Positions 1 through 13,293 of a DNA stretch of 14,448 nucleotides are shown in pieces; the first letter of the stretch is position 1; each line of letters starts with the position of its first letter. The notes under the pieces were generated by a model. The model saw nothing but the letters and a program-made list of their open reading frames with translations. It did not search any database and was not told the origin of the DNA. Source of the stretch: Nocardioides ginsengisegetis (lineage in GTDB: Bacteria; Actinomycetota; Actinomycetes; Propionibacteriales; Nocardioidaceae); contig NZ_JACGXA010000004.1 in the NCBI RefSeq assembly GCF_014138045.1, forward strand, positions 1-14,448. Reading direction: 5' to 3'. A program made the position numbers and the translations under genes.

Positions 1-2
1 GC

Positions 3-1847: not shown

Positions 1848-2002
1848 ACACCTACGACGACCACGACGACCTCGCTTGCCCAATGTGCTGCCGCGAGGCA
1901 TGCCAGACCTGCGCCGCCCCTTGCGAACACACCGACCCCCTGTGCGTCAGGTGCTGCCGGCTCTACCACCAGAACGAACCGATCCGAGAGGACGTCGCAT
2001 GA
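1844..2002 (+). CDS. Cys-rich mini-protein, 52 aa, GTG start
   Basis: The GTG at 1844 overlaps the preceding TGA (GTGA), and the gene ends in an ATGA overlap with the exonuclease gene, so the start is fixed by coupling on both sides. Nine cysteines fall within 27 residues: CPMCC, then C, CQTC-like spacing, C, and C-x2-CC. That is enough for two zinc ions or a cross-brace fold. A short acidic N-terminus (NTYDDHDDL) precedes the cysteine block. I do not recognise a named family. It is a good candidate for a B-box- or RING-like mini zinc fold, but this rests on cysteine spacing alone. Confidence 0.5.
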   Translation: MNTYDDHDDLACPMCCREACQTCAAPCEHTDPLCVRCCRLYHQNEPIREDVA

Positions 2003-2676
2003 CGCTGCACATCCTGGACGTTGAGCAGGGAACGCCTCCGTGGCATGACGCTCGCCGAGGAATCGTGACCGCCTCGACCGTCGGCAAGCTACTGACCCCC
2101 ACGCTCAAGGTCGCATCCAACGACGTGTCCCGAGGCATCACCGCAACCCTCGTCGCCGAACGCATCACCGGCCACACCGAGGAAACCGGCATGAGCCCCG
2201 ACATGTGGCGAGGTGTCGAGTCCGAGCCGATCGCCCGCGACCTCTACTCCGGCCACTACCAGCAGGCCGTCGAGGTCGGGTTCATGCGCCGCGACGAAGA
2301 CGACTGGACGCTCGGATACTCGCCCGATGGCCTCGTGGCTGACGACGGGCTGATCGAGATCAAGTCGCCCCGCCAGAAGACCCACCTGAACACGATTCTG
2401 GCGAACGAGGTCCCGACGCACTACATGCCGCAGTTGCAGGCCGGGCTACTCGTCTCCGGCCGCAAGTGGATCGACTTTGTGTCCTACTGCGGCGGCCTCC
2501 CCCTCTGGGTCAAACGCGTCACACCCGACCCCGCCTGGTTCGACGCCATCACCGCAGCCTGCCAGCAGTTCGAGAAGGCCGCCGCCGAAATGGGCGCGGC
2601 CTACACCCAAGCAATCGTCGGCCTCCCCACCACGGAGCGGGTCGACTTCAACCGAGTGGAGTTGAAGCTCGCATGA
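1999..2676 (+). CDS. YqaJ/lambda-exonuclease-type recombination exonuclease
   Basis: A 225-residue PD-(D/E)xK nuclease of the YqaJ/lambda Red exonuclease family, which resects double-stranded DNA ends 5' to 3' to expose single strands for annealing. The family marks are all present: GTPPWHDARRGIVTAS at residues 11-26, the conserved acid in the GVESEP segment (E74/E76), LGYSPDG with D110, IEIKSP giving E120 and K122, and the QLQAGL glutamines Q145/Q147. The length is normal. The start is ATG 1999 (ATGA overlap); an in-frame upstream ATG at 1720 would bury two genes. A probable ssDNA-binding/annealing partner follows two genes later at 2936 and a resolvase-like nuclease at 4055, making a recombination module. 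Confidence in the family is high. Confidence 0.92.
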   Translation: MTLHILDVEQGTPPWHDARRGIVTASTVGKLLTPTLKVASNDVSRGITATLVAERITGHTEETGMSPDMWRGVESEPIARDLYSGHYQQAVEVGFMRRDEDDWTLGYSPDGLVADDGLIEIKSPRQKTHLNTILANEVPTHYMPQLQAGLLVSGRKWIDFVSYCGGLPLWVKRVTPDPAWFDAITAACQQFEKAAAEMGAAYTQAIVGLPTTERVDFNRVELKLA

Positions 2677-2936
2677 AGCACGTCGAAGACCGTTCGGCCA
2701 TCCGACCGAGGCCGCATCACTACATGAACGCGGACGGCACCTGTCACGCGGGCGACCTCATGGAGCACGGGACGCCGTTCGTCGCGCTCTACGACGCCGA
2801 GGAACTGTGTCGCATCGTCAACGCGGAGAAGGCGGAGGCGTGGGACGAGGGCAAGTGGGCGTGCTACAGCGCCGAGCGCGAATCCCGCGACGGCTCGGCC
2901 CTCATCAACCCCTACGCCAGACACCTGGAGCACTGA
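2673..2936 (+). CDS. Hypothetical protein, 87 aa, in the recombination module
   Basis: ATG 2673 overlaps the exonuclease stop (ATGA), and the TGA at its end shares a base with the ATG of the next gene (TGATG). The protein is His-rich at the N-terminus (RPRPHHYMNADGTCHAGDLM) and continues with LYDAEELCRIVNAEKAEAW, a probable helix. There are three Cys residues but no clear CxxC pair. Its place between the exonuclease and its probable partner suggests a role in the same process or a hitchhiking accessory gene. I do not recognise the family. Confidence 0.6.
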   Translation: MKHVEDRSAIRPRPHHYMNADGTCHAGDLMEHGTPFVALYDAEELCRIVNAEKAEAWDEGKWACYSAERESRDGSALINPYARHLEH

Positions 2937-3475
2937 TGCGCGTCACCATCGAAAAGAAGACCGACCAGCTCAACTATGAAGACTTCCTGGGCGGCGTGAC
3001 GCGAATCGTCACCATCGCAGGAGTCAAGGCCGGCACCAAGGAGCAGCAGTACGACATCGCCATCGAAGGCGACACGCGCTTCTGGCGACCAGCCGTCACG
3101 GTCCTCAAGCAACTGGTCGACGCGTGGGGCGACGATGCTACCGAGTGGGTTGGACGCCGCGCCGAACTGTACGGCGACCCGGAGGTCTCGTTCGGCCGCG
3201 ACAAGGTCGGCGGAATCAGGGTCTCTCGGCTCTCCCACATCGACGGCCCGAGGACCGCGAACCTGACGATCACCAGGGGCAAGCGCGGCAACTTCACCGT
3301 GACACCGCTGCCTGACACGCCCACCGCACCCCCCGAGCCCACCGCCGAAGAGGTCGCCGCCTGCACCGACGTCGACCAGTTGAAGGCGATGTGGCGCAAC
3401 TCCAGCCCCGAGCGTCGCCAGCAGATCGAGCAGAGGGTGGCCGACCTCAACGACGAGCCGACGGGTGACGCCTAA
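2936..3475 (+). CDS. Probable ssDNA-binding/annealing protein of the recombination module, 179 aa
   Basis: The start ATG 2936 shares a base with the preceding stop. Residues 12-30 (LNYEDFLGGVTRIVTIAGV) and 63-102 (AWGDDATEWVGRRAELYGD, then VGGIRVSRLSHI) match a widespread phage family that I know only as uncharacterised proteins lying beside replication and recombination genes; the pattern suggests a compact beta-rich (OB-like) fold. A proline-rich linker follows (about 122-132), then a helical tail (TAEEVAACTDVDQLKAMW to the C-terminus) like the tails of many phage RecT/Erf-type annealing proteins. No classical RecT, Erf or Red-beta gene is visible near the YqaJ exonuclease, so this is the best candidate for its single-strand partner. 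That role is inference. Confidence 0.6.
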   Translation: MRVTIEKKTDQLNYEDFLGGVTRIVTIAGVKAGTKEQQYDIAIEGDTRFWRPAVTVLKQLVDAWGDDATEWVGRRAELYGDPEVSFGRDKVGGIRVSRLSHIDGPRTANLTITRGKRGNFTVTPLPDTPTAPPEPTAEEVAACTDVDQLKAMWRNSSPERRQQIEQRVADLNDEPTGDA

Positions 3476-3570
3476 TGCGCGCCCTGGTCGCGGTCGCTGC
3501 CGTGTGGCCGCTGCTCGTCGAGGTGAAGGCGTTCAGGACGGCGCTGGTGGTTGCGGGGTGGGGCGGGTGA
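3475..3570 (+). CDS. Possible 31-aa ORF between the annealing-type protein and HNH
   Basis: ATG 3475 overlaps the preceding TAA (TAATG), and its TGA overlaps the GTG of the HNH gene. The product is short and hydrophobic (MRALVAVAAVWPLLVEVKAF at the N-terminus), compatible with a membrane peptide but equally with a chance frame. It could be a translational bridge into the HNH gene or the remnant of a gene cut off when the HNH was acquired. No family is recognised. Coupling is the only positive evidence. Confidence 0.3.
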   Translation: MRALVAVAAVWPLLVEVKAFRTALVVAGWGG

Positions 3571-4055
3571 AGACCTGCTCAACGGAAGGCTGTGCGCAGC
3601 CATCGATGGCTAGGGGCCTTTGTCGGCTCCACTACGAACGGGCGACTAGGGGCTATGTCCCGCGCACTCCGGCCAGCCCACTAGATAGCTGGTTTGAGAA
3701 GACCAAAGGTTGCTGGATCTGGAAGGGCCACATCACTAGGTATGGCTACGGCCAGCTCCGCGGCAAGAAGGCACACCGCTTGGTCTATGAAGCAATGGTC
3801 GGGCCAATCCCCGAGGGATTGGTGATCGACCACCTATGTCGCAATCGGGCGTGTGTCAATCCAGAACACATGGAGCCCGTCACCAATGAGGAGAATCTCG
3901 ACCGCGGAGCTCGCAGCCCCAGTAAGACGACTTGCCCGGTGGGGCACTCATACACGCCCGAAAACACCTACGTCTACAACGGCGCCCGCCAATGCCGGAC
4001 GTGCAGGCGTGAAGCGGCGCGGCGGTATCGGGCGCGGATCGCGGAGGCGAGCTAG
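3567..4055 (+). CDS. HNH homing-type endonuclease, 162 aa
   Basis: A stand-alone HNH endonuclease of the kind often mobile in phages. The start is GTG 3567, overlapping the preceding TGA; the frame upstream of it is open but does not look coding. Residues 4-22 form a zinc finger (CSTEGC ... CRLH). The core follows: GCWIWKGHIT at 48-57, HRLVYEAMVGPIPEG at 70-84, then IDHLCRNRACVNPEHM at 87-102, with D88-H89, Cys pair C91/C96, N98 and H101 as the HNH catalytic and metal residues. A C-terminal CPVGH ... CRTCRREAARRYR unit probably binds DNA. The DNA is visibly richer in A/T than its neighbours and uses rarer codons (ATA, AGG, CTA, TAG-adjacent runs), which suggests recent transfer. It sits between two recombination genes that are usually close together. 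Confidence 0.88.
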   Translation: MKTCSTEGCAQPSMARGLCRLHYERATRGYVPRTPASPLDSWFEKTKGCWIWKGHITRYGYGQLRGKKAHRLVYEAMVGPIPEGLVIDHLCRNRACVNPEHMEPVTNEENLDRGARSPSKTTCPVGHSYTPENTYVYNGARQCRTCRREAARRYRARIAEAS

Positions 4056-4405
4056 TGACTCGCAACCGCGCCACCGCCAAGAAGGCCGGCACCGCATGGG
4101 AGACGGCGATCGTCGGCGCGCTCGTCGCCTACGGATGGCCCCACGCTGAACGCCGACGCCTAGCGGGAGCCGCCGACAAGGGTGACATAGCCGGCATCCC
4201 CGGCGTCGTCATCGAAGCGAAGAACACCAAGGGGTATGCGCTCGCCGAAGCTGTCGACGAAGCCAACCATGAGGCCGTCAACGCCTCCGCACCCATCGGT
4301 GTCGCCTGGTTGAAGCGCAAGGGCAAGACCGACCCGCTCGCCGGCTACGTCGTCATGGACGGCGCGACCTTCCTGCGGCTGCTCGGAGAGGCGGGCTACC
4401 AGTGA
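4055..4405 (+). CDS. Holliday-junction-resolvase-like PD-(D/E)xK nuclease, 116 aa
   Basis: A small nuclease-fold protein resembling those annotated as Holliday junction resolvases in actinobacterial phages. Motif residues are E16 in GTAWETAIV, GAADKGDIAGIPG with D44, and IEAKN giving E54 and K56, that is E...D...E-x-K of the restriction-endonuclease-like fold. A mixed helix/strand C-terminal part (GVAWLKRKGKTDPLAGYVV, then FLRLLGEAGY) matches the family's usual end and length. It would cut branched DNA made by recombination or replication before packaging. GTG 4055 shares a base with the TAG of the HNH gene, and the TGA overlaps the next GTG. Binding to junctions specifically is inferred from family resemblance; a general VRR-NUC-like nuclease is the alternative. 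Confidence 0.82.
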   Translation: MTRNRATAKKAGTAWETAIVGALVAYGWPHAERRRLAGAADKGDIAGIPGVVIEAKNTKGYALAEAVDEANHEAVNASAPIGVAWLKRKGKTDPLAGYVVMDGATFLRLLGEAGYQ

Positions 4406-4638
4406 CCATCGCCGCCAACCTCGCCACCCTGGCCGCCGACCTCAACGGCTGGACCAACGCCATCGACAAGGCCAGACGCGCCTACGCCCAGCACCTCAAC
4501 GAGCTCGAAGCCCACACGATCTGCCGCGACTGCGACCGACCAGCCACCAGCCAAGGCCGCTGCGACCCACACCGCCGCCGCTACTGGTCCGAATGCAGCC
4601 AGCGCGCCCGCGACAAGAAGAAGGAGACCACGGCATGA
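4402..4638 (+). CDS. Small protein with Cys/His cluster, 78 aa
   Basis: GTG 4402 overlaps the resolvase-like gene's stop (GTGA). Residues 1-37 form a probable amphipathic helix pair (ANLATLAADLNGWTNAIDKA, then RRAYAQHLNELEAH). After that comes ICRDCDRPATSQGRCDPH, a C-x2-C ... C-x2-H zinc knuckle, then a basic tail (RARDKKKE). A helical oligomerisation region plus a basic zinc knuckle suits nucleic-acid binding. The family is not recognised. The stop overlaps the next ATG. Confidence 0.6.
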   Translation: MTIAANLATLAADLNGWTNAIDKARRAYAQHLNELEAHTICRDCDRPATSQGRCDPHRRRYWSECSQRARDKKKETTA

Positions 4639-4991
4639 CCCGCCACTGGGACCGCGACGAATCCCCATCCACTCTCACCCACGGCGAATGGCGACTCGAC
4701 CCGAAGACCCGCGTGCTCGTGTGGGTTGACGCACCGCCCGTCAAGGAAGACCCGATCGCCTGCTACGTCTGTTTTGCCACCATCTACCAGTCTTGCCGGA
4801 CCATCGGCGGCAGTCGCACCAAGGACCACGCCGGACGCGCACCCCGTCTGTGCCGTTGTGGACGCGAGCCGTCCTACCGCGCTTCCTACTGCGACACCTG
4901 CCGACCAGAGGAGCACCGGGCACGCGCTCGAGCGAGCAAGCGACGTGTGGCTGACCGCAGGTGGGCCGAGTCTCAGCGGGAGGCGGCGTGA
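4635..4991 (+). CDS. Double zinc-ribbon protein, 118 aa
   Basis: The start is ATG 4635 (ATGA overlap); an in-frame ATG at 4593 is buried in the preceding gene. The first 40 residues are polar with a WRLDPKTRVLVWVDAPP strand pair. Then come CYVCFATIYQSCRT, with a further Cys near residue 74, and LCRCGREPSYRASYCDTC, giving at least two zinc-binding sites. A highly basic Arg-rich C-terminal helix follows (HRARARASKRRVADRRW). The C-terminal basic helix after a ribbon suggests DNA or RNA binding. Related Cys patterns are common in actinobacterial phages without known function. Confidence 0.62.
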   Translation: MTRHWDRDESPSTLTHGEWRLDPKTRVLVWVDAPPVKEDPIACYVCFATIYQSCRTIGGSRTKDHAGRAPRLCRCGREPSYRASYCDTCRPEEHRARARASKRRVADRRWAESQREAA

Positions 4992-5209
4992 GCGGGCAGT
5001 TCGAGGACGACGGCGACAAGATCCGCGAGCTGCTGGCCGCGCTCACCGCCGAGCGTTACCGCTCTCCCTGGTGGCGCACACCCGCCGACCACCACCCCGC
5101 GAGCGCACCCGACGCGCTCACCGACTGGGACGACTCAGAAGCGACCTGCGCGCGACGTCGGCGGGCGATGGCAGCGGACTTCGAGCAGGAGAAGAGGGCT
5201 GCGTCGTGA
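4988..5209 (+). CDS. Small hypothetical protein, 73 aa
   Basis: GTG 4988 overlaps the previous TGA; an in-frame ATG at 4961 is inside the upstream gene and lacks the coupling. The product has an acidic helix (FEDDGDKIRELLAALTAERY), a linker rich in His and Pro, and a second charged helix (RRRRAMAADFEQEKRA). The segment RSPWWRTPADHHP in the middle is distinctive. One Cys only, so no zinc site. The family is not recognised. Its stop shares a base with the next ATG (TGATG). Confidence 0.6.
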   Translation: MSGQFEDDGDKIRELLAALTAERYRSPWWRTPADHHPASAPDALTDWDDSEATCARRRRAMAADFEQEKRAAS

Positions 5210-5361
5210 TGGGCCGACACGCGCACCCCACCCCCCACTGTCCACTGGGGATTCCGCCTGTGCTATGGGAAAATGGGGCCACAGATGAAGACGGCCCGGA
5301 CGCGGAGTTGGTACCTCCGGCCGGGCCTACCGATCAGCACCAAAGGAGAGTGATCGGCTGA
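5209..5361 (+). CDS. Possible 50-aa protein, overlapping a leader hairpin
   Basis: ATG 5209 shares a base with the preceding stop and the frame runs to TGA 5359-5361, which shares a base with the ATG of the next gene. The predicted product is low in hydrophobic content and Pro-rich (AHPTPHCPLGIPPVLWENGA at the start), with no recognised domain. The same DNA carries a strong inverted repeat (5293-5327) and is locally less codon-biased than the flanks, so an alternative is that this stretch is mainly an untranslated leader of the replication operon. I hold the two readings as about equal. Confidence 0.35.
   Translation: MGRHAHPTPHCPLGIPPVLWENGATDEDGPDAELVPPAGPTDQHQRRVIG
5293..5327 (+). promoter_or_regulatory. 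Leader hairpin upstream of the replication genes
   Basis: GGCCCGG (5293-5299) pairs perfectly with CCGGGCC (5321-5327), and inside it GGAG (5304-5307) pairs with CTCC (5315-5318), giving an eleven-pair stem with one interior loop. No T-run follows, so it is not a good intrinsic terminator. It lies 14 bases before the AAAGGAG ribosome-binding site (5342-5348) of the next gene, so it could tune translation or messenger stability. A weak extended -10-like TGCTATGGG sits upstream at 5261-5269, without a convincing -35. Confidence 0.45.
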
Positions 5362-5498
5362 TGGCTATCTTGCCACCACCAACCCCCGGCGCGCACGACG
5401 ACGTACCTCCTTGCCCCAACTGTGGCGAGGACATCACCAGCGACTTGCACCACGACTGGTGCATCGCGCCCCTGGATCAGATCGAGGGGTGGGTCTAG
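5361..5498 (+). CDS. Zinc-finger mini-protein, 45 aa
   Basis: ATG 5361 shares a base with the preceding TGA and is preceded by a strong but somewhat distant AAAGGAG at 5342-5348 (12-base spacing). The protein has CPNCGEDITSD then LHHDWC, a C-x2-C ... H/C pattern that can hold one zinc. The last codon TAG shares a base with the GTG of the replication initiator. Very short zinc-finger proteins directly before the initiator are common in such phages; role unknown. Confidence 0.55.
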   Translation: MAILPPPTPGAHDDVPPCPNCGEDITSDLHHDWCIAPLDQIEGWV

Positions 5499-6361
5499 TG
5501 CCGCGCATCCGCACCATCAAGCCCGACGCGTTCCTGAGCGAATCCCTGTCGTCCGTGCCCCGTGGCACCCGCTGGACATTCGCCGGCCTCTGGACCTACG
5601 CCGACGACAAGGGCCGAGCTCGCGACGACGCCCGACTCATCAAGGCCGCGCTCTACCCCCTCGACGACGACGTGACCCTGGCCGACGTCGCCCACGACCT
5701 CGACCTGCTGGCCGCAATCAGCGGGATCTGCCGCTACGTCGTCGAGAACCGCAACTACCTGCACATGCCGAAGTGGCACCACCAGAAGATCAACCGCCCC
5801 ACCCCCGCCAAGAGCCCCCCGTGCCCGATCCATGAGGGCGGCGGGAGCGGTCACGTACTCCCCACTGACAACTCAGTGATTAATCACGGAGGAATCACTG
5901 AGCCCTCAACGTGGGAAAGGAAGGGAAGGGAAGGGGAAATGGAAGGGGAAGGGAACGGAGAGTCCGCGACTGACGTCGCCGACGCGCCGAAGTCACTCGC
6001 TCTCGTGAACGACCAACGACCCGACGTTGATGGCATCTGCGAACACCTCGCCGGAGCCATCGAGGCCAACGGCAGCAAGCGACCAACCATCACCACCAGG
6101 TGGCGTTCTGCCGCCCGCCTCATGCTCGACAAGGACGGACGCAGCGCCGACGAGATCCACGGCGCGATCGAGTGGTGCCAGCGCGACGAGTTCTGGCGGG
6201 CCAACATCCTCAGCCTGCCGACCCTCCGCGAGAAGTACGACACCCTCCGGCTCCAAGCGCAGCGCAAGAGCGCCGCCACCCCGCGACAGGCCGCCGAAGC
6301 CGAGATGTGGGAGCGCGCCTACGCCCGCGCTGAGGCTCGCGAGATCGGGGCCGAGCGATGA
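5498..6361 (+). CDS. Phage replication initiation protein (DnaD/lambda O-like role), 287 aa
   Basis: The N-terminal half (about residues 1-105) begins VPRIRTIKPDAF and contains TFAGLWTYADDKGR, DDARLIKAALYPLDDD and HHQKINRPTPAK, the hallmark of a phage replication protein family with a winged-helix DNA-binding domain. A low-complexity linker (about 106-165) contains ERKGREGEMEGEGNGE. The C-terminal domain (about 170-265) has RPTITTRWRSAARLMLD and IEWCQRDEFWRANILSLPTL, typical of the second domain that contacts the replicative helicase or its loader. GTG 5498 is chosen because it shares a base with the previous TAG and starts exactly at the family's usual N-terminus. The linker-coding DNA carries iteron-like and purine-rich sequence (5872-5962), as in lambda, where the origin lies inside gene O. 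Confidence 0.82.
   Translation: MPRIRTIKPDAFLSESLSSVPRGTRWTFAGLWTYADDKGRARDDARLIKAALYPLDDDVTLADVAHDLDLLAAISGICRYVVENRNYLHMPKWHHQKINRPTPAKSPPCPIHEGGGSGHVLPTDNSVINHGGITEPSTWERKGREGEMEGEGNGESATDVADAPKSLALVNDQRPDVDGICEHLAGAIEANGSKRPTITTRWRSAARLMLDKDGRSADEIHGAIEWCQRDEFWRANILSLPTLREKYDTLRLQAQRKSAATPRQAAEAEMWERAYARAEAREIGAER
5872..5962. other. Candidate replication origin inside the initiator gene
   Basis: CTCAGTGATT (5872-5881) is mirrored perfectly by AATCACTGAG (5893-5902). Within it GTGATTAATCAC (5876-5887) is a 12-base palindrome, so the half-site AATCAC/GTGATT occurs three times within 31 bases. Directly after comes an almost pure purine block, uninterrupted at 5913-5939 and 5941-5955, built from repeats of GGGAA and GGGGAA. 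A/T-rich half-sites followed by a strand-asymmetric purine run, in the linker of the initiator gene, match the layout of origins located inside lambda O-type genes. The function is inferred from layout. Confidence 0.5.
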
Positions 6362-6768
6362 ACCCCCGCGAGGCCGTCGACCTGGCGCGCTACATGCGGG
6401 CGCACTTCCCCCAGCAGCCGATCGACGAGTTCACCGCCGATGCGCTTGCTGAGACGTTGCGCGAGTACCCAGCCACTGACTGCCGCAAGGCGGTGCTGAA
6501 CCTCGCCGAGCGTGGCGAGCATTGGTGCGCACCAACAGCCGTCAAGGCTGAGGTGAAGCGCATCCGCAACAAGCGGGTCGCAGACTATGGCCCGATTGAG
6601 CCGCCCGCAGGACTCGACCCTGATGACGTGCGCGGCTACCAGCGTTGGCTCGGCGCGATGCACAAGGAGATCGCGGACGGCACCCTCACCGCGCCGCCCG
6701 AGATTGAGGGCATGGTGCGCGACGTTCGCGAGCTCGGCCACATCGGTCAGGACGTGCCCGATGCCTGA
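6358..6768 (+). CDS. Helicase-loader-like replication accessory protein, 136 aa
   Basis: ATG 6358 overlaps the initiator's TGA. The mostly helical N-terminal 75 residues (NPREAVDLARYMRAHFPQQP, FTADALAETL, DCRKAVLNLAERG, FxAP-type WCAPTAVKAEVKRIRNKRV) resemble small phage proteins that sit beside the initiator and are related in pattern to helicase loaders such as the G39P/loader-and-inhibitor group. The C-terminal part starts PPAGLDPDDVRGYQRWLGAM, a segment frequent in actinobacterial phage loader-like proteins. It would bring the host or phage DnaB-type helicase to the origin. There is no ATPase motif, so it is not a DnaC-type loader. The loader role is an inference from position and pattern. 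Confidence 0.6.
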   Translation: MNPREAVDLARYMRAHFPQQPIDEFTADALAETLREYPATDCRKAVLNLAERGEHWCAPTAVKAEVKRIRNKRVADYGPIEPPAGLDPDDVRGYQRWLGAMHKEIADGTLTAPPEIEGMVRDVRELGHIGQDVPDA

Positions 6769-6904
6769 CGCCAAGCGCACCAAGCGCAGCCGCGAGGAGT
6801 ACGAGGACCTGATCGCGAAGGCCATGCGCGTCGGGGACATGGGTTGGGTCGAGTTCCTGACCACCCGCTTCGACCGCGACTACCCGGCAGGAGGCGACCA
6901 GTGA
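6761..6904 (+). CDS. Small basic protein, 47 aa
   Basis: ATG 6761 lies eight bases before the end of the loader-like gene. The product starts with a basic stretch (MPDAKRTKRSREEYEDLI) and continues as a helix (IAKAMRVGDMGWVEFLTTRF). It is too short for a catalytic domain. Coupling at both ends (GTGA with the following frame) supports translation. The family is not recognised; it may be an accessory of the loader or initiator. Confidence 0.5.
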   Translation: MPDAKRTKRSREEYEDLIAKAMRVGDMGWVEFLTTRFDRDYPAGGDQ

Positions 6905-6984
6905 CCCGCCACCCCACCACCGCGCCCGACCTTGAGACCACATCCGCTAGCACCGACCACACCGAGGAGCACGCGCATGGCTGA
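6901..6984 (+). CDS. Possible 27-aa coupling ORF
   Basis: GTG 6901 overlaps the previous TGA (GTGA), and the frame ends at 6984, overlapping the next gene's ATG (6977) by eight bases. The product is Thr- and His-rich with no recognisable feature. It may serve only to carry ribosomes to the next start; GAGGAG at 6964-6969 supplies that gene's ribosome-binding site. Weakly supported as a functional protein. Confidence 0.3.
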   Translation: MTRHPTTAPDLETTSASTDHTEEHAHG

Positions 6985-7540
6985 GACGCCGCAGAACGTC
7001 GACATTGAGCCGTTGACCGACGCCGAGTGGAACGCGATCTGCCGCGCCGCAGGAGAGCACTCGGACGACGCCTGCGATGCGCTGAAGGTGGCCGTCGAGC
7101 GCATCATCGCCGAGCGAGAGCGGGTCGCCGCTGAGATTGCCTGGGATGAGGGTGTCGCCCACTGCGAGGAGATTGCGGGCGTCGGCTACAACCAGCCCGG
7201 AGCAAGCTACGAGGGCGGGGACTCCAACCCTTACCGCGCCGCACCTGCCCCGCCCCAACCGGACCCGAGGAGGCCGACCGTGGCTGACGACCGCTGCCTG
7301 AACTGCAACCAGACCCTCCGGGTCATCAACTACGTACTCGGCGAGCGGCTGATGCATGTGGACCGCGATGCCTCGTTCCCGAGCGCGCAGAAGGGGACGG
7401 CGTGGCGACACTGCCGACAGCGAGTCGCCACCCTCCCGCCGACGCCTATTGATGGCCTCACAGACCCGTGCCCGACGCCGGAGTACGAGCCCGAGCGGCG
7501 CATAAGCCCCGACACGAACGAGGAGGCCGACCGTGGCTGA
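6977..7540 (+). CDS. Fused two-part protein, 187 aa, with a possible internal start
   Basis: The frame from ATG 6977 is open to 7540. Residues 1-90 are a helical unit (LTDAEWNAICRAAGEHSDD, ERERVAAEIAWDEG) ending in a GYNQPG ... DSNPYR segment of the kind that normally lies at the very end of small actinobacterial phage proteins. From residue 102 a second unit begins, VADDRCLNCNQTLRVINY, with a Cys pair, a WRHCRQR segment and the tail PERRISPDTN. A strong internal start exists: GAGGAGG at 7267-7273, then GTG 7280, in frame. The sequence before GTG 7280 is a copy of a junction cassette (see 7247-7287) that, read in another frame, ends the upstream gene at 7285-7287. I therefore infer two former genes joined by a frame change; both the 187-aa fusion and the 86-aa internal product are possible. 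Confidence 0.6.
   Translation: MAETPQNVDIEPLTDAEWNAICRAAGEHSDDACDALKVAVERIIAERERVAAEIAWDEGVAHCEEIAGVGYNQPGASYEGGDSNPYRAAPAPPQPDPRRPTVADDRCLNCNQTLRVINYVLGERLMHVDRDASFPSAQKGTAWRHCRQRVATLPPTPIDGLTDPCPTPEYEPERRISPDTNEEADRG
7247..7287 (+). repeat. Junction cassette copy 1 (ribosome-binding site plus start)
   Basis: This 41-base segment matches 7735-7775 at 39 positions. It holds ACCGGACCCGA (7258-7268), the ribosome-binding GAGGAGG (7267-7273), and CGACCGTGGCTGA with a GTG at 7280. Read in the frame ending at TGA 7285-7287 it encodes PAPTGPEEADRG-stop, almost the same tail as at copy 3, yet the gene above it runs through in another frame. It shares an identical 21-base end with copy 2 (7520-7540). 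Confidence 0.8.
7492..7511 (+). repeat. ERRISP repeat copy 1
   Basis: CGAGCGGCGCATAAGCCCCG, identical at all 20 bases to 7721-7740 and 8952-8971. In each copy it is read in the same frame as ERRISP near the end of a coding region. It is followed here within 9 bases by junction cassette copy 2. Confidence 0.85.
7520..7540 (+). repeat. Junction cassette copy 2 (short form)
   Basis: These 21 bases are identical to 7267-7287: a GAGGAGG ribosome-binding site, six bases, then GTGGCTGA, in which the GTG (7533) starts the next gene and the TGA (7538-7540) ends the previous one. The upstream half of the cassette (ACCGGACCCGA) is absent. The tail encoded is EEADRG-stop. Confidence 0.8.
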
Positions 7541-7775
7541 GTCCGTGCTCATCGGCTCGACATGGAGGCGCAACCCTCCAGGGCGTGAAGTCGTTCGGAT
7601 TGAACGCGTGTGGATGTACTCCGCCCTCGGCGACTCGGCAGAACTGACCGTGCGAGCACATCCAGTCACGGGAGGTAGGCCGCTCGTTGCGCCCGTCGAG
7701 TGGCTCCGCAAGCACTACACCGAGCGGCGCATAAGCCCCGCCCCGACCGGACCCGAGGAGGGCGACCGTGGCTGA
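7533..7775 (+). CDS. Small beta-rich protein, 80 aa, ERRISP tail
   Basis: GTG 7533 sits eight bases inside the previous gene with GAGGAGG at a six-base spacing, so the start is well defined. The body (SVLIGSTWRRNPPGREVVRI to EWLRKHYTER) looks like a small SH3-like beta barrel of a kind common in phage accessory genes: an initial GSTWRR strand, alternating valines, and a final helix WLRKHYT. The last 17 residues, ERRISPAPTGPEEGDRG, come entirely from the two DNA repeats (7721-7740 and 7735-7775), so the core domain probably ends around residue 62 and the tail is borrowed. Function unknown. Confidence 0.7.
   Translation: MAESVLIGSTWRRNPPGREVVRIERVWMYSALGDSAELTVRAHPVTGGRPLVAPVEWLRKHYTERRISPAPTGPEEGDRG
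7721..7740 (+). repeat. ERRISP repeat copy 2
   Basis: The same 20 bases as at 7492-7511, here fused directly to junction cassette copy 3, whose first six bases it shares (7735-7740). It encodes ERRISP at the end of the 80-aa protein. Confidence 0.85.
7735..7775 (+). repeat. Junction cassette copy 3
   Basis: Matches copy 1 (7247-7287) at 39 of 41 positions (differences at 7745 and 7762). It encodes PAPTGPEEGDRG-stop in the frame of the 80-aa gene and provides GAGGAGG (7755-7761) and GTG 7768 for the following gene. This is the most complete copy, with the ERRISP repeat attached on its left. Confidence 0.85.
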
Positions 7776-7959
7776 GCGAGGCCGAGGGTCCCGCCGAAGC
7801 GACGGCCACTGTCCGGCGTGCGGCGCTGAGTGCAGCGCGCCGCCTGCCAGCACCGACGCCCACCGCATGTGGGCCCAGCGCCACGCCGACGCGACCGGCC
7901 ACACCGCGTGTGTCATCACCGAATCCGTCCGCACCTACGAGCCGAGGAGCACCACGTGA
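7768..7959 (+). CDS. Zinc-finger protein, 63 aa
   Basis: GTG 7768 lies eight bases inside the previous gene behind the GAGGAGG of the junction cassette. After a short basic N-terminus (MAERGRGSRRSDG) the protein has CPACGAEC followed by DAHRMWAQRHADATGHTACV, so C-x2-C and two His six residues apart form a C2H2-like finger (about residues 15-45). The tail ITESVRTYEPRS is typical of this small phage family. It probably binds nucleic acid or a protein partner. The TGA overlaps the next GTG (GTGA). Confidence 0.65.
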   Translation: MAERGRGSRRSDGHCPACGAECSAPPASTDAHRMWAQRHADATGHTACVITESVRTYEPRSTT

Positions 7960-8138
7960 GCACCCGAGTCGCCTGCCAGTCCTGCCCCATCACGTTGCCC
8001 GTCGAGCAGTTCGTGGACCTCGTGTCAGGCGGGTGGGACATGACGCACACGTTCCAGCGCCCCGAGTTCAACGACGGCAAGGTCGTCGTCTGCCGAGGCA
8101 GGTTCGCCGCCCCGACCGGACCCGAGGGGGGCCGATGA
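7956..8138 (+). CDS. Small zinc-knuckle protein, 60 aa
   Basis: GTG 7956 is coupled to the previous TGA; the frame upstream of it (from ATG 7830) is a shadow of the preceding gene. CQSCPITLP gives a CxxC near the N-terminus, and a third Cys in VVVCRGRF may complete a site. The middle WDMTHTFQRPEFNDGKV is short and mixed. The last residues AAPTGPEGGR are encoded by junction cassette copy 4 rather than by the core. Function unknown. Confidence 0.55.
   Translation: MSTRVACQSCPITLPVEQFVDLVSGGWDMTHTFQRPEFNDGKVVVCRGRFAAPTGPEGGR
8107..8127 (+). repeat. Junction cassette copy 4 (upstream half only)
   Basis: CCGCCCCGACCGGACCCGAG plus one more G is identical to 7738-7758 of copy 3. After that the sequences part: here GGGGGGCCGATGAGC follows, with ATG 8135 in place of GTGGCTGA. 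The encoded tail is APTGPE then GGR-stop. The copy again sits over the ribosome-binding site of the following gene. Confidence 0.75.
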
Positions 8139-8386
8139 GCGGCGACGAGCCTGAGATCCTGCTGCGCACGAGCGACTACGTGCTGGACATCGAGTTCCGT
8201 TGTACAGACGAGGACCACCCTGCTGACGGGCCGACTTGGTCCCCGTACCGCCACCTCGACCCAACCACGCCGACCAACAAGGCGCTCGAGGCCGTCGAGA
8301 GACTGAACGCCGACGGTGCTGCGGAGTGCATGGAGTTCCGCCTGACCGGCACTCGCATCGACTCCGTGAAGGAGTTGCTGACATGA
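8135..8386 (+). CDS. Hypothetical protein, 83 aa
   Basis: ATG 8135 overlaps the previous gene by four bases, with a G-rich ribosome-binding site in the cassette. The sequence has a beta-type N-terminal half (EILLRTSDYVLDIEFRCTDE), a loop with DGPTWSPYRHLD, and a helix-strand end (NKALEAVERLNADGAA, CMEFRLTGTRIDSVKELLT). Two isolated Cys, no pair. I do not recognise the family. The end is coupled to the ART-like gene (ATGA at 8383). Confidence 0.6.
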   Translation: MSGDEPEILLRTSDYVLDIEFRCTDEDHPADGPTWSPYRHLDPTTPTNKALEAVERLNADGAAECMEFRLTGTRIDSVKELLT

Positions 8387-9033
8387 GCCCATCAGTCAGC
8401 GCCGCCGACGGCCAGGAGGCCGAGCGCCTCGGCAATTCGACGAAGCCGAACCCGGACCAGCCCGCCCGCTGCCCGTCGATCGACCCGCACGACACACTCC
8501 AGTGCGCCCGGCGCATCCACGAGGACGACCAGTGCGTCTTCGGCGGCATCGGCTGGAAGAAGGGCGAGCGGCCTCAGCGCGACGTCCCAGCATTCCTCTA
8601 CCACTGGTCGCCAGCCAGGAATCGGATCAGCATCGAGCGCGAAGGCCTACGCCCCGGATCTCCGTCGAACACCTTCCCCGAGTGGTCCCCGCCCCACATC
8701 TGTTACGGGGAGACGCCGGCCTCCGCGCTCGGCCTGACGCTGCTGCCCGACGAGCTCGACCTGTGGATGGTCCGGACCGACAGCCACAGGTTCACCCTGG
8801 CCAACGAGGGTGCGGAGTGGCGCAGCGCCGACCAGATCGAGGCGTGGTGGGTCGGCGGTCGACCTCCTCGTGACCCAGTCATCGACATGACCCCGGCCGA
8901 GCAGGCCGAGGCCGACGAGATCGTGGCCTACCTCCACGAGCAGGAGATTGCCGAGCGGCGCATAAGCCCCGAAACGCACCCAACCCCCACCACCACCGAG
9001 ACCGGCACCACGACAGGAGCAGCAGATGAGTGA
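8383..9033 (+). CDS. Possible ADP-ribosyltransferase-fold protein, 216 aa
   Basis: ATG 8383 overlaps the preceding TGA. Three parts are visible. Residues 29-55 (RCPSIDPHDTLQCARRIH, DDQCVFGG) form a Cys/His unit. Residues 71-160 hold FLYHWSPARNRISIEREGL with Y73-H74, then PPHICYGETPASALGL and DLWMVRTD, then EGAEWRSADQIEAWWVGG. The order YHxS ... IxxEGLRPG ... CYxxxPxxA ... E-W-R ... I is like ART-fold families (for example KptA- or DarT-like), in which an N-terminal His, a Tyr and a late Glu line the NAD site. Residues 169-190 are an acidic helix, and the end carries ERRISP copy 3. If ART-like, it would modify a host protein or nucleic acid. This rests on pattern, not alignment; a non-enzymatic phage family is possible. 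Confidence 0.5.
   Translation: MSPSVSAADGQEAERLGNSTKPNPDQPARCPSIDPHDTLQCARRIHEDDQCVFGGIGWKKGERPQRDVPAFLYHWSPARNRISIEREGLRPGSPSNTFPEWSPPHICYGETPASALGLTLLPDELDLWMVRTDSHRFTLANEGAEWRSADQIEAWWVGGRPPRDPVIDMTPAEQAEADEIVAYLHEQEIAERRISPETHPTPTTTETGTTTGAADE
8952..8971 (+). repeat. ERRISP repeat copy 3
   Basis: The same 20 bases as 7492-7511 and 7721-7740, about 1.2 kb downstream, read in the same frame (AERRISPE) near the end of the 216-aa protein. It is followed not by the junction cassette but by an unrelated Thr/Pro-rich tail. Confidence 0.85.
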
Positions 9034-9274
9034 GCGCGAGGACGACCTCAGGACGCTGGGCATCGAGCACGCCTTCGAACGCCTTGACCCCGACGGCTAT
9101 GGCTGGGCAGCGGGCGACGGTCCTAGTGCCGAGGAGGTCGTGGGGGCGCTCATCGCGGCCGGCTGGCGACCTCCCGCCCACCGCGGATCGCACGACTTCG
9201 ACAACCACGGACCAACCGACAACCTCGACTGCCCCGGATGCGTGGCCCCCGAGACTCCTGGAGACCAGCCGTGA
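9026..9274 (+). CDS. Hypothetical protein, 82 aa
   Basis: ATG 9026 lies eight bases inside the previous gene with AGGAG a short distance upstream. The N-terminal half is helical (REDDLRTLGIEHAFERLDP, AEEVVGALIAAGWRPPAH), a pattern reminiscent of small phage proteins in which GALIAAGWRPP is followed by a short tail. The C-terminal part DNLDCPGC has one CxxC near the end. The family's function is unknown to me. The TGA overlaps the next GTG. Confidence 0.6.
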   Translation: MSEREDDLRTLGIEHAFERLDPDGYGWAAGDGPSAEEVVGALIAAGWRPPAHRGSHDFDNHGPTDNLDCPGCVAPETPGDQP

Positions 9275-9660
9275 GCACCGTGAGCATCAACGAGACGTGC
9301 CGCTGTGGGGCGACGTTCAGGGCGAGCGGAGACACGTTTGCCGTCAGCAGACGCCAGGGGTCATTCGATGAGCAGCACGCCGGATGTCGCCAGATCGAGC
9401 CCGGCATGTGCGGCAACCCGAGCCCCGTGCTGGTCAAGCTCGGCACGCCGACGGCGGACTACTGCCAGTTGCGCACGAGTGCGCCTCCCGTGTCGTCCAC
9501 GTCCAGGGAGCGCCGACGAGCCCGCGACCGGACCCGACACCCACCGCGCCCGACTCACAGCCCCACACGGCCACCAACGATTCCGCGTCGCCTGGCCCGG
9601 AGCAACCGCCGACGACTGGATCGACTACGCAGACGAAGAGAGGGCCGTCGCGATGGCTGA
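9271..9660 (+). CDS. Cys-rich protein, 129 aa, with doubtful C-terminal half
   Basis: GTG 9271 is coupled to the previous stop. The first 75 residues look real: TCRCGATFRASGD, FDEQHAGCRQIE and MCGNPSPVLVKLG contain a zinc-ribbon-like set of Cys and His. From about residue 80 the product turns into Arg/Pro-rich low-complexity sequence (RERRRARDRTRHPPRPTHSP) that looks like the shadow of the frame used by the next gene. The DNA from about 9480 has better codon character in the +1 frame. Either the gene truly overlaps the next by about 180 bases, or a frame change has fused its end to nonsense. Confidence 0.5.
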   Translation: MSTVSINETCRCGATFRASGDTFAVSRRQGSFDEQHAGCRQIEPGMCGNPSPVLVKLGTPTADYCQLRTSAPPVSSTSRERRRARDRTRHPPRPTHSPTRPPTIPRRLARSNRRRLDRLRRRREGRRDG

Positions 9661-9733
9661 CGTTCTTGTGAAGACCAAGGGAGCGGTCGTCGTGTACGCC
9701 GTCAACATCATTGAAGACCAGGAGGCGGCGTGA
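9479..9733 (+). CDS. Hypothetical protein, about 84 aa, start uncertain
   Basis: The C-terminal 55 residues look coding: HQRFRVAWPGATADDWIDYA, DEERAVAMADVLVKTKG and AVVVYAVNIIEDQEA, a small strand-helix-strand unit. The start is unclear: GTG 9479 is the nearest plausible start giving the whole domain, but it lacks a clear ribosome-binding site, and ATG 9653 would remove most of the domain. The region 9479-9540 (PGSADEPATGPDTHRARLT) contains ACCGGACCCGA (9527-9537), the core of the junction cassettes. Its stop overlaps the GTG of the HTH gene. It may once have been the end of the gene above, in a shifted frame. Confidence 0.45.
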   Translation: MRLPCRPRPGSADEPATGPDTHRARLTAPHGHQRFRVAWPGATADDWIDYADEERAVAMADVLVKTKGAVVVYAVNIIEDQEAA

Positions 9734-10533
9734 ACAGCGAGTGCAAGTGCGGACGACCAACCCGAGACGCCGCCTACGTGTGCGACACCTGCGGGGACGA
9801 ACTCGCCCGCGCCCTCGGTGACGTGACCTGGTTGGCCGAGGAGCTCGAAACCACCATCACGCGCCAGAGAGGCGTCGACTACCGCGGCGTCGGAGGCAGT
9901 AGTGGCGGCAAGAAGCCCTCAGAACGCCCCTCTCCCGTCCAATGGGGCGCCAGTGAGGCTCGGGGAGACCTCAGAGCCCTGCTCGTCTCATGGGCGCTGT
10001 TCTGTGAGGCTGAGGGGGTCAGGAACTCCTCGCCCTACCCCGGGCTGCCCGACGACGACCTCCCCGCCCTGTCCGGCTGGCTACTCTGGCGGGTCGACGG
10101 GCTGACCCTCAACGAGATCGGCTCCGATGCCGTCGAGGAGATCACCTCGGCCGTCGCCCACTGTCGTCGCGTCATCGACGTGGCCCCCGACAAGTGGTAC
10201 GCCGGCCCCTGCAACCAGGAGACCGAAGGCGTCGAATGTGGTGCCGACCTGTACGCCCTCTCCGCAAAGGGCAACGTCTCCTGCGGCGTGTGCTCGGCAA
10301 GCTACGACGTGGCCGAGCGTCGGAAGTGGCTCCTTGAGGCCGCTGAGGACAGGCTAGCCGATGCCGCCACCCTCGCCCGGTCAGTGTCCTGGCTCGGCGC
10401 ACTACCCCTCAACGCAGCACGCATCCGCAAGTGGGCCGAGCGCGGCCGGATTGTCGCCAAGGGACACCACGGGCAGAAGCCGCTGTATCGCATCGGGGAC
10501 GCCATCGACCTGCTCGCCAAGGAGGCATCGTGA
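9730..10533 (+). CDS. Zinc-finger and helix-turn-helix DNA-binding protein, 267 aa
   Basis: GTG 9730 overlaps the previous TGA. The N-terminus is a zinc knuckle with C5, C7, C18 and C21 (CKCG ... VCDTC). Residues about 28-60 (WLAEELETTITRQRGVDYRG) lead into a helical middle with the RGDLRALLVSWALFCEAEG segment. Near residues 155-185 a second Cys set occurs (PCNQETEGVECG, then CGVC). The C-terminal part (about 186-265) has DVAERRKWLLEAAEDRLADA, then LPLNAARIRKWAERGRIVAK and GQKPLYRIGDAIDLL, the pattern of a MerR-like/excisionase-like winged HTH. The architecture is frequent in actinobacterial phages. It is the last gene before the non-coding gap at 10534-10782 and may regulate transcription there; that is inference. 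Confidence 0.8.
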   Translation: MNSECKCGRPTRDAAYVCDTCGDELARALGDVTWLAEELETTITRQRGVDYRGVGGSSGGKKPSERPSPVQWGASEARGDLRALLVSWALFCEAEGVRNSSPYPGLPDDDLPALSGWLLWRVDGLTLNEIGSDAVEEITSAVAHCRRVIDVAPDKWYAGPCNQETEGVECGADLYALSAKGNVSCGVCSASYDVAERRKWLLEAAEDRLADAATLARSVSWLGALPLNAARIRKWAERGRIVAKGHHGQKPLYRIGDAIDLLAKEAS

Positions 10534-10578
10534 GCCTCGCGCGCGGGATTGTCCCCGACACGTAACAAAGATCAAGAG

Positions 10579-10607
10579 TTGACTTGCGCCAATGGTTGTG
10601 CATGTGT
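10579..10607 (+). promoter_or_regulatory. Promoter-like element
   Basis: TTGACT at 10579-10584 matches the -35 consensus well. No clean TATAAT lies 17 bases on (the hexamer there, at 10602, is ATGTGT). An odd palindrome TGTGTCACA at 10603-10611 overlaps this region and could be an operator. The gap is the first sizeable non-coding stretch in the window and A/T content rises here (around ACAAAGATCAAGAGTTGAC), which supports a promoter. A very short frame (10530-10565) follows the HTH gene and is not counted as a gene. Confidence 0.4.
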
Positions 10608-10614
10608 CACACTC

Positions 10615-10637
10615 GGGTTGGGCGATACGCCCATCCC
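10615..10637 (+). other. Small hairpin in the intergenic gap
   Basis: TGGGCG (10619-10624) pairs with CGCCCA (10628-10633) around an ATA loop, and GGG (10615-10617) pairs with CCC (10635-10637) across one mismatch. It lies between the promoter-like element and the terminator-like hairpin, so a transcript from the promoter would contain two adjacent stem-loops. Confidence 0.5.
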
Positions 10638-11264: not shown

Positions 11265-11315
11265 ATACCGATCCGCGGGACGCCTGAGCGCCCGCCGACC
11301 CACAGGAGCCCCGTC

Positions 11316-11570
11316 GTGGCACTCTCCGAACTCGCAGCGACCGTCAATGCCGAACTGCCACACAGGACTTGTCAGGTCTGCCATGCGCTCGCAGGCATCC
11401 CCACCGCCGAAGCCGCAGGGCTCCGGTCACTGCTCGCGAACCCTGGCCTCAAGTACACGGCCATCAGCGACATGGTCGCGGCCGACCCGGACACTCCACT
11501 CCTGCTCCACCCAGACGCGCTATCCCGTCACGCACGGGGCCGCTGTGGTGCGCGGGAGATGCTGCGGTGA
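11316..11570 (+). CDS. Small helical protein preceding the phosphoesterase, 84 aa
   Basis: GTG 11316 has ACAGGAG seven bases upstream. The protein shows TCQVCHALAGIPTAEAAGLR and NPGLKYTAISDMVAAD, then DALSRHARGRCGAREMLR. This resembles a small actinobacterial phage family with a CxxC followed by helices and a final RHARGxC segment, possibly an HTH-like fold (ALSRHARG as recognition helix). It is normally found just before a metallophosphoesterase gene, as here (GTGA overlap). Function unknown; a DNA-binding role is inferred. Confidence 0.6.
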   Translation: MALSELAATVNAELPHRTCQVCHALAGIPTAEAAGLRSLLANPGLKYTAISDMVAADPDTPLLLHPDALSRHARGRCGAREMLR

Positions 11571-12772
11571 GCATCGCCGACACTGCCCGCCGCGTCGGCA
11601 CGATCGAACGCGAGCACCTGGCGAACAAGGGCCGCGTTGAGGTCACGCCCGAGGGTGGCGAGTTCACCGACGTGCAGTTGGACGCGCCGATCAAGTCCGG
11701 TGACTGGTCGCGCGTATTCCGCATCTTCCAGCTCGACGCCACTGAGTTCGAGGTTGTCGACGACACGGTCCGAATGACGACGTGGCAGCAGTCCAAGGCG
11801 CTCGAGGACGGCACCCGCGACATCGTCCAGCTCTACTCCTACGGCGCCCGCTTCAAGCGCAAGCCCAAGGCGCGGCTCTCCGATGATGAGATCACTGAGC
11901 GTCGCAAGGCCGTCGCGAAGTGGAAGATCCCGAAGCGGGAGCGCACGACCACCCGAAACGGTAGCGTCGCCGCGGTCATCAACCTCGCTGACATTCAGGG
12001 CGGCAAGTCCGAGGGTGGCGGCGTCGCAGCAACTCAGCAGCGGCTTCACGACGGCCTCGAGAACGTAGACCGCTGGCTTGATCGCATGGCCGGCGACTAC
12101 AACGTCTCCGAGGTTGTGCTGGTCAACAATGGCGACCCGATGGAGAATTGCGCCGGCAACTACGCCGCCCAGTTGTTCACGGTTGAGCTAAACCACCGCG
12201 GCCAGATGAACTTCGTGCTCGACGTGTGGGAGCAGTACGCACGGCACCTGTTCCCGCGCTTCGACAAGGCCCGGTTCGTGTCGGTGCTGTGCAACCACGG
12301 CGAGTTCGGCCGCATGGGTGCGGCGAAGTCCCAGACCAGCGACAGCGACAACGCAGGCGGCTTCCTCGCTGAGACCCTGCGCAGGGTGCTCGATCGACCC
12401 GAGTTCGCCCACGTCGAATGGACAATCCCGCACGACGAGATGAACGTCTACGCCGACGTCGCAGGTGTCCCGATGGCGTTCAACCACGGCCACAAGATCC
12501 CCGGCAACGACGCGTCCGGCTTCGAGAAGTGGCTCAACGGCCAAGTCCGCGGCGACCACCAGGCGCACGCTGCACGCATCTGGCAGACCGCACACCGCCA
12601 CCACTTCGCCGCCTGGGACATGGGCTCGTGCTCAGTCTTCCAAGCGCCCTCGCTCGACGGCGGCAGCAAGTGGCTGACCGACATGACGGGCCGCTACTCA
12701 CGCTCCGGCATCCTCGCCTACCTCGTGGGTGAGCACGCGCCGCTCGGCTGGTCAGACATGGCGTTCCTGTGA
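11567..12772 (+). CDS. Metallophosphoesterase (calcineurin-like), 401 aa
   Basis: GTG 11567 overlaps the previous stop and gives the family's normal N-terminus; a much longer frame from ATG 11369 is an out-of-frame overlap with the preceding gene. Residues 35-100 hold an N-terminal module (SGDWSRVFRIFQLDATEFEV, MTTWQQSKALEDG). The catalytic domain follows with LADIQGGK (D142), NNGDPMEN (D190 and E193), LCNHGEFGR (N243-H244), FNHGHKIPG (H307, H309) and TAHRHHF (H343, H345), the five metal-binding motifs of calcineurin-like phosphoesterases. The usual D-x-H is D-I-Q here; phage members of this family that I know share that change. It would hydrolyse phosphodiesters or phosphomonoesters; substrate unknown. 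It shares four bases with DUF3310 downstream. Confidence 0.85.
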   Translation: MSIADTARRVGTIEREHLANKGRVEVTPEGGEFTDVQLDAPIKSGDWSRVFRIFQLDATEFEVVDDTVRMTTWQQSKALEDGTRDIVQLYSYGARFKRKPKARLSDDEITERRKAVAKWKIPKRERTTTRNGSVAAVINLADIQGGKSEGGGVAATQQRLHDGLENVDRWLDRMAGDYNVSEVVLVNNGDPMENCAGNYAAQLFTVELNHRGQMNFVLDVWEQYARHLFPRFDKARFVSVLCNHGEFGRMGAAKSQTSDSDNAGGFLAETLRRVLDRPEFAHVEWTIPHDEMNVYADVAGVPMAFNHGHKIPGNDASGFEKWLNGQVRGDHQAHAARIWQTAHRHHFAAWDMGSCSVFQAPSLDGGSKWLTDMTGRYSRSGILAYLVGEHAPLGWSDMAFL

Positions 12773-12993
12773 GCACGCCGAAGCCTGACCCCGTTGAGCA
12801 CCCGACGCACTACACAGGACACCCAAGTGGCATCGAGTGCATCCAGATCACCGAGCACATGGGCTTCAACCTCGGGAACGCCGTCAAGTACATCTGGCGC
12901 TGCGACCTCAAGCTCGACGCCATCGAGGATCTCCGCAAGGCCAAGTGGTACATCGAGCGGGAGATCGCCAAGCGCGAGACCCGTGCCAACTGA
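12769..12993 (+). CDS. DUF3310 family protein, 74 aa
   Basis: GTG 12769 overlaps the phosphoesterase stop. The sequence VEHPTHYTGHPSGIECIQIT ... GFNLGNAVKYIWRCDLKL ... AIEDLRKAKWYIEREI is the full DUF3310 signature: the HPTHY start, I-E-C-I pair, the GNAVKYIWR helix and the basic DLxKAxWY helix. The length is normal. The family is widespread in phages, often among nucleotide or replication genes, and has no proven function. The start is fixed by the GTGA overlap. Confidence 0.9.
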   Translation: MSTPKPDPVEHPTHYTGHPSGIECIQITEHMGFNLGNAVKYIWRCDLKLDAIEDLRKAKWYIEREIAKRETRAN

Positions 12994-13039
12994 GGGCTGC
13001 CCCTTGTGTGGCGAGTGGTCCTGCGGCTGCTCGCTTTAG
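12983..13039 (+). CDS. Possible 18-aa zinc-knuckle peptide
   Basis: GTG 12983 lies inside the end of DUF3310, and the frame VPTEGCPLCGEWSCGCSL ends at TAG 13037-13039. Four Cys in 18 residues is unusual for chance. It may be a very small metal-binding peptide or the remnant of a longer protein whose start was lost. There is little else to support it. Confidence 0.3.
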   Translation: MPTEGCPLCGEWSCGCSL

Positions 13040-13080
13040 GCAGATCCCTAACACCCAACCCGGTGAAGGCTGTGACCTGA

Positions 13081-13212: not shown

Positions 13213-13262
13213 GCCGCCAACACGGGGCAAGCACACCAACAATGGTCCGTCGTCCTAGTTGA
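13209..13262 (+). CDS. Possible 17-aa peptide
   Basis: ATG 13209 overlaps the TGA of the 43-aa frame (ATGA) and runs 17 codons to TGA 13260-13262. It is basic and Ser/Thr-rich. Coupling is the only argument; it could be chance. Confidence 0.15.
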   Translation: MSRQHGASTPTMVRRPS

Positions 13263-13293
13263 GCGCACCTTGTAGCACTACCGAGGAGTAGGC

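Follow-up and report, generated by a model that had tools for sequence, protein, structure and literature searches.

Gene-junction repeats in a phage-like element of Nocardioides ginsengisegetis: a probable coupled-start joint that recurs in other phages, and gene tails shared by unrelated genes

Short conserved boundary sequences have been named as a route by which phage genomes become mosaic (PMC3029335), and several described cases come close to the arrangement reported here: a chain of repeats at successive junctions of small genes in Nocardioides ginsengisegetis, on contig NZ_JACGXA010000004.1 of assembly GCF_014138045.1, all 14,448 bases of which make up the stretch analysed (the window). 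In the mycobacteriophage Island3, set beside Brujita, similar DNA of about 50 bp gives the neighbouring gp67 and gp68 the same 18 C-terminal residues, although gp68 is said to have no homologues; the authors propose that recombination at the shared sequence adds or removes a gene (PMC3029335). Two genes of cluster O phages, Corndog 14 and YungJamal 60, each lie between copies of a short direct repeat, 17 bp long for Corndog 14, which is sited at a gene junction and occurs once in relatives (PMC4351075). Mosaicism has also been linked to relaxed homologous recombination by Rad52-like phage recombinases, described for lambdoid phages and for the Red-beta, RecT and Erf types (PMC3945230).

A further class of repeat is the start-associated sequence (SAS), which is GGGATAGGAGCCC in cluster K mycobacteriophages, with 11-19 copies per genome (PMC3203893), and GGGAAAGGACCCC in cluster EF Microbacterium phages, with ten (PMC7302621); recent papers still call the role of the cluster K sequence undetermined (PMC12699233, PMC11373665). 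The repeats in the window have features of both classes. We favour, with moderate confidence, the reading that one of their modules (module C) serves actinobacterial phages as a start-associated joint that couples neighbouring genes, and that the other two (modules A and B) are marks of recombination at short homology, through which unrelated genes received shared tails.

The window holds five exact direct-repeat pairs of at least 18 nt, all within 7266-8972. Markov shuffles (100 of each order) gave on average 0.00 (order-2) and 0.01 (order-4) such pairs per shuffle, which rules out a chance origin. All copies lie on the forward (+) strand, and genes are named here by their start positions. 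Module A (GAGCGGCGCATAAGCCCCG, encoding the peptide ERRISP, at 7493, 7722 and 8953) forms an exact repeat, CCGAGCGGCGCATAAGCCCCG, at the end of gene 7280 (7491..7511), at the end of gene 7533 (7720..7740) and near the end of gene 8383 (8951..8971). Module B (CCCCRACCGGACCCGAGGRGG, at 7253, 7741 and 8110) is found as CCCCAACCGGACCCGAGGAGG at 7253..7273 and again at 7741..7761 and 8110..8130, the last copy ending gene 7956 and preceding ATG 8135. Module C (GAGGAGGSCGACCGTGGCTGA, at 7267, 7520 and 7755) combines a ribosome-binding site (RBS), a GTG start and an overlapping TGA: the copy at 7267..7287, GAGGAGGCCGACCGTGGCTGA, contains GTG 7280, that at 7520..7540 the stop of gene 7280 and GTG 7533, and that at 7755..7775 the stop of gene 7533 and GTG 7768. 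A degenerate C-like joint, GAGGAGCACGCGCATGGCTGA, with the start ATG 6977, lies at 6964..6984 and is 77% identical to module C over 22 nt.

The modules are combined differently at five joints. Joint 1 (start 7280) is B followed by C; joint 2 (start 7533) has A and then, after a few further bases, C; joint 3 (start 7768) is A, B and C; joint 4 (start 8135) is B alone; and joint 5, at the end of gene 8383, is A alone. The hexamer GCCCCG ends A and begins B, and is the point at which the two are fused in joint 3. When nine gene bodies were compared pairwise by blastp, the best E was 0.036; direct repeats at gene junctions here thus flank unrelated bodies.

An earlier reading made from the sequence alone had taken these repeats for one cassette at four junctions between 7247 and 8127. 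That the repeats are real and exceed chance was borne out, but they are three modules, and the sequence-only reading had missed module A, one copy of which lies about 0.8 kb downstream. Its copies 1 (7247-7287) and 3 (7735-7775) do match at 39 of 41 bases, and copies 3 and 4 do share 21 identical bases (7738-7758 and 8107-8127); the identical block of copies 1 and 2 measures 22 bases (7266-7287 and 7519-7540) instead of 21. GAGGAGG and GTG are present as described in copies 1-3, but joint 4 has a ribosome site of its own. The tail PAPTGPEE-(A/G)-DRG, said to be made by the repeat, comes in frame from copy 3 alone, as PAPTGPEE-G-DRG: copy 2 gives ERRISPDTNEEADRG, copy 4 gives AAPTGPEGGR from a 21-nt block that stops before the start codon, and in copy 1 the corresponding frame, PAPTGPEEADRG, is not that of gene 6977. 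The unrelatedness of the gene bodies, also claimed, is confirmed; homology between the flanking proteins, the outcome that would have pointed to plain tandem gene duplication, did not occur, and that origin is ruled out.

In copies 1-3 of module C, GAGGAGG lies 6 nt 5' of the GTG, and in the word GTGGCTGA there is an 8-nt overlap between this GTG and a TGA of a different frame. The upstream protein ends in EADRG or EGDRG at joints 2 and 3. Joint 1 is arranged differently: gene 6977 (6977..7540, an open frame of 187 codons) meets no stop before gene 7280 and stays open past GTG 7280, in the same frame, until the stop at 7540, and the PAPTGPEEADRG frame is open for just 45 codons. GTG 7280 is supported as the real start of a second gene because all four homologues of gene 7280, which are metagenomic, begin there. 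No homologue of the first half of open reading frame 6977 was found at E <= 0.01.

Module C recurs well beyond the window. Its 18-base core occurs at 92 sites in 91 viral-contig stretches, and 37 sites in 36 of these stretches continue with the TGA. Each of these 37 sites has, in the overlapping arrangement, an upstream and a downstream frame that stay open for 30 codons or more (30 of 37 do so for 60 codons); as controls without the RBS-like part in the same 36 stretches, 50 of 131 other GTGNNTGA words and 12 of 26 GTGGCTGA words do. At E <= 1e-4 the downstream proteins gave 0 matching pairs and the upstream proteins three. The sequence-only reading had named as support many hits of its 41-base copy before unrelated genes, which holds for this 21-bp RBS/start core. 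The remaining 55 core sites do not have that TGA, and many of them, by reading, share one identical continuation.

The spacer of the joint is also unevenly used. Two permuted spacers were found in 4 and 1 viral stretches, vs 36 for module C. A looser scan for GAGGAGG-N6-GTGGCTGA was read in 116 of 120 stretches, a junction being defined by an upstream frame of at least 40 codons and a downstream frame of at least 30; among the matches listed, 94 of 111 distinct sites were junction-like, and CCGACC, the spacer of module C, was the commonest, at 8 of 111 vs about 1.0 expected if positions were independent. Most such joints therefore use other spacers. Within the genus, 6 of 214 other genomes have module C without its first G, at seven sites in all; the frame upstream of these sites is open for 99-431 codons and that downstream for 49-502. 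The two permuted spacers were each found in 0 of 209 genomes (a slightly different genome draw). One of the seven sites lies in a prophage-like region, L138, that also carries relatives of window genes 5495, 6358 and 8383. In this same region (16655-16789), a segment 71% identical to 45 residues close to the N-terminus of gene 8383 is followed by a different body, which ends at a module C joint.

Named phages, mostly of actinobacteria, show the same placement in weaker matches. Among the matches listed (40 of 44 records, several of them GenBank/RefSeq pairs), 27 of 35 weak matches to this half of the query (E 0.03-5) span two annotated genes, six span one gene and two are in unannotated records. 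In four records, those of Megan, Kozie, Sparky and Stoor, the matched site is annotated as an 8-nt overlap and differs from C at one or two positions.

These recurrences also bear on an explanation by selection alone, under which a single sequence would simply be the best coupled start in these hosts and no recombination between joints would be needed. In its favour, many phages have C in front of unrelated genes, two chromosomal-looking sites have it too, its spacer is preferred over two permutations, and 8-nt overlaps recur in annotated actinobacterial phages. It leaves modules A and B unexplained, however, which both lie upstream of the start region, and it accounts neither for the 39/41 match of joints 1 and 3 nor for the synonymous sites that A and B share over 21-22 nt between unrelated proteins, A with a rare codon as well. 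We consider selection as the sole explanation unlikely, if deserving of attention.

Chains of C-like joints are present in other loci too. Counting sites with up to 5 mismatches in successive small genes, L092 has eight and L048 seven, although one of the eight in L092 is without the RBS-like part and seemingly lies inside a gene. The L048 repeat reaches into the coding start (VADDIVTR), with 38 identical bases. L092 and L032 have in common a 75-bp stretch with a C joint, 88% identical, after which the downstream genes differ; their upstream proteins match over just 23 residues at their ends. To judge from these alignments, this pair is the closest case to one joint with different genes attached. 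Within the shared stretch (L092 10139-10213, L032 3577-3648), a palindrome-like ACTATACC...GGTATAGT stands just before the joint in L092 and is possibly an operator. The start VADDIVTRL, or a close form, is found in several different small proteins (L048 5857, 6041 and 6514; L092 9342 and 9574; L032 2783), some of which also have an EIERLRA segment, their N-termini belonging to the repeat.

Modules A and B tell a different part of the story, that of tails on unrelated genes. The relatives found for genes 7280 and 7533 come from sequence archives and are mostly metagenomic. Among about 5.8 billion proteins searched, gene 7533 (7533..7775, 80 aa, GSxWRRNPPGREVV family) has 14 relatives besides itself, in which the body is common to about HYTE. 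The tail ERRISPAPTGPEEGDRG is missing in 14 of 14: these proteins end soon after the conserved body without ERRISP, one of them (P0013) in GGADRG. Three viral loci carry the gene, and at one of these, L258, the copy is without the tail and stands, by reading, alone between other genes. Gene 7280 (7280..7540, 86 aa, MADDRCLNC family) has four relatives, three of which lack ERRISP and have another C-terminal part. The fourth, P0001, from another contig, is 90% identical to gene 7280 at the protein level, has ERRISP and then differs. Gene 7280 of this lineage therefore probably had module A earlier than genes 7533 and 8383 did. The codon ATA makes up 4 of 94 Ile codons in 18 open reading frames of the window, and three of those four are in module A, in every copy; that unrelated proteins equally use this rare codon speaks for copied DNA, and not convergence, as the origin of the A copies.

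A search for a single 41-base cassette common to other phages, made via A and B, did not find one. Module A matched at one same-genus site with one mismatch and exactly in seven genome contigs of scattered organisms; no viral contig matched. Module B has one-mismatch sites in 15 other genomes of the genus, a single site in each. Two viral contigs match a looser form of the B pattern, and the sequence read there shows no joint. For A and B, then, the outcome under which the copies occur only as local duplications did arise; for C it did not. Searches by gene were equally sparse: no phage record was found via gene 7280 or gene 7533, gene 7280 had no match in viral contigs and two marginal ones in the genus, and gene 7533 had none in genome contigs or in other genomes of the genus.

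This restricted distribution suits a plain local duplication, in which slippage or illegitimate recombination would have copied gene ends within one phage with no exchange of bodies between phages, as does the position of every copy except one within 0.9 kb. Against it stand the unrelated bodies between the copies and the occurrence of ERRISP on P0001 from another contig. Furthermore, the families of two of the bodies occur elsewhere mostly without the tail, in one case in a different setting (L258, by reading), and bodies and tails have therefore parted company. We regard local duplication as quite improbable. The claim that genes are exchanged as cassettes draws support from the 14 tailless relatives of gene 7533, but exchange itself was not observed, P0001 being the nearest case to it.

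Compared with the described boundary repeats, the locus resembles Island3 67/68 in that neighbouring unrelated genes share tails through repeated DNA; it differs in that Island3 has a sister genome without the extra gene, whereas here five joints combine three modules in various ways and none such was found (PMC3029335). Corndog 14 and YungJamal 60 involve one gene per event and other sequences, whereas the repeats here chain several successive genes (PMC4351075). As in relaxed recombination, short or diverged homology would lead to mosaic phage genomes, but just a YqaJ/RecE-like nuclease was identified here (PMC3945230). The repeats look as though they were left by gene swapping such as has been seen before in related viruses.

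The likeness to SAS, which the sequence-only reading had drawn in idea while noting the different sequence, is apt. Like those of clusters K and EF, the C copies are near-identical, lie at RBS positions directly before the starts of different families (three in the window, 37 of 37 viral sites) and are conserved beyond Shine-Dalgarno pairing, by the counts for permuted spacers (4 and 1 vs 36 contigs; 0/209 twice vs 6/214 in the genus). The sequence GAGGAGGSCGACCGTGGCTGA is, by reading, neither GGGATAGGAGCCC with up to 2 deviations nor GGGAAAGGACCCC, and the genome has three copies, each listed twice owing to overlapping contigs, where SAS phages have at least ten. Module C, moreover, includes start and stop and codes for the upstream gene, whereas SAS are described just upstream of the start, the extended part of the cluster EF sequence lying in non-coding gaps (PMC7302621), and C is spread over unrelated phages with mostly few copies each. 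In the literature on start-associated and junction repeats in phages, covered by titles and abstract openings, we recognised no description of C, which is not proof of absence. A regulatory role, as proposed for cluster K SAS, would have a phage or host factor bind at chosen starts to time translation. The position at starts and the conservation beyond the Shine-Dalgarno part fit such sites; there are just three good copies in the window, however, and the conserved sequence is mostly also coding. We know of no factor that would bind module C. We regard this role as very unlikely.

How the favoured reading, of a coupling joint with grafted tails, would work can be set out in steps. In module C, the last codons of the upstream gene (EADRG-stop) would double as RBS, spacer and GTG start of the next gene with the 8-nt overlap, and so may couple translation of the neighbours. 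The joint is used before many unrelated phage genes, and its spacer is conserved more strictly than ribosome binding by itself would seem to require. Modules A and B would stem from the 3' ends of genes and would have been copied, at the DNA level, to the ends of unrelated genes of this phage. Recombination at the short homology of the joints would then be the likely route by which gene bodies were replaced or inserted, perhaps helped by the phage's RecE-like nuclease, each new gene being left with a working stop, RBS and start.

Such a route of gene swapping is supported because the window encodes both a YqaJ/RecE-like exonuclease (1999..2676, +, start inferred; Pfam YqaJ E 1.4e-18, phrog_149 E 1.8e-36) and a Holliday junction resolvase that is RusA-like by its PHROGs name (4055..4405, +; phrog_244 E 1.9e-23). 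Shortly after the nuclease gene, the gene at 2936-3475 matches phrog_11517 (function unknown) and is a candidate partner of the nuclease.

Several points weigh against the favoured reading. No annealing partner of the RecT, Erf or Red-beta type was identified among the phage proteins scanned, a subset of the phage's genes. Phages, viral contigs, genome contigs and 215 same-genus genomes yielded no close relative that has gained or lost a gene between copies, and exact A and exact B are in this phage alone among those 215. Copy 1 is out of frame with the preceding gene, so joint 1 does not end gene 6977. With regard to module C, two of the seven genus sites look chromosomal by reading (G127 and G020), and six proteins, one beside each site except that in G103, gave three weak PHROGs matches (E 0.001-0.004) and three none. 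The letters EADRG and VAD or VAE at C sites follow from the search pattern and add no evidence, and most 8-nt overlaps of annotated phages are something other than C: 13 further ones, hand-picked from three records, differ from C at 4-12 of 21 positions. The recurrence of C across unrelated phages could be convergence and not descent.

The genes from joint 3 onward are open frames on the same strand. Gene 7768 (7768..7959, 63 aa), gene 7956 (7956..8138, 60 aa, with its AAPTGPEGGR tail from module B) and gene 8135 (8135..8386, 83 aa) have no match in the phage collection; gene 8383 (8383..9033, 216 aa) carries ERRISP near its C-terminus.

The window is one of six contigs of a 4.46-Mb genome. 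A second contig, C2, covers window positions 1-10632 (10,632 bp) at 100% identity; C6 overlaps the window end (11287-14448) at 99.97%, and C5 overlaps C6 at 100%. An independent second copy of the region on C2 is ruled out: these contigs are overlapping pieces of one element, and they double the copy counts in this genome. C2 encodes a serine recombinase with Resolvase, Recombinase and zinc-ribbon domains, and the window also contains an HNH gene and one for a replication initiation protein. The element is most naturally read as a temperate phage or prophage, in whose early part the repeats lie. It has no close named phage: a near-identity search returned 28 matching records, the best covering 1% of the window. 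The DUF3310 gene at 12799-12977 is the source of the 80-90% nucleotide matches to named phages among the 20 of 28 records listed.

The feature is best seen as more intricate than first noted and as akin to known boundary repeats and start-associated sequences. Annotators should not take identical protein tails here as a sign of common function, since they reflect the joint. The C joints, together with the local chains of copied gene ends, offer places for direct tests of exchange guided by homology at gene borders. The most interesting part is the broad recurrence of C with its spacer. A bolder proposal, which we put forward as a long shot, is that GGAGGNCGACCGTGGCTGA is a common joint of unrelated actinobacterial phages, kept for translation and also because it lets coupled small genes pass between otherwise unrelated phages and arrive with a functional stop, ribosome site and start; if this were true, GGAGGNCGACCGTGGCTGA would act for phage accessory genes as a cloning linker that has spread in nature.

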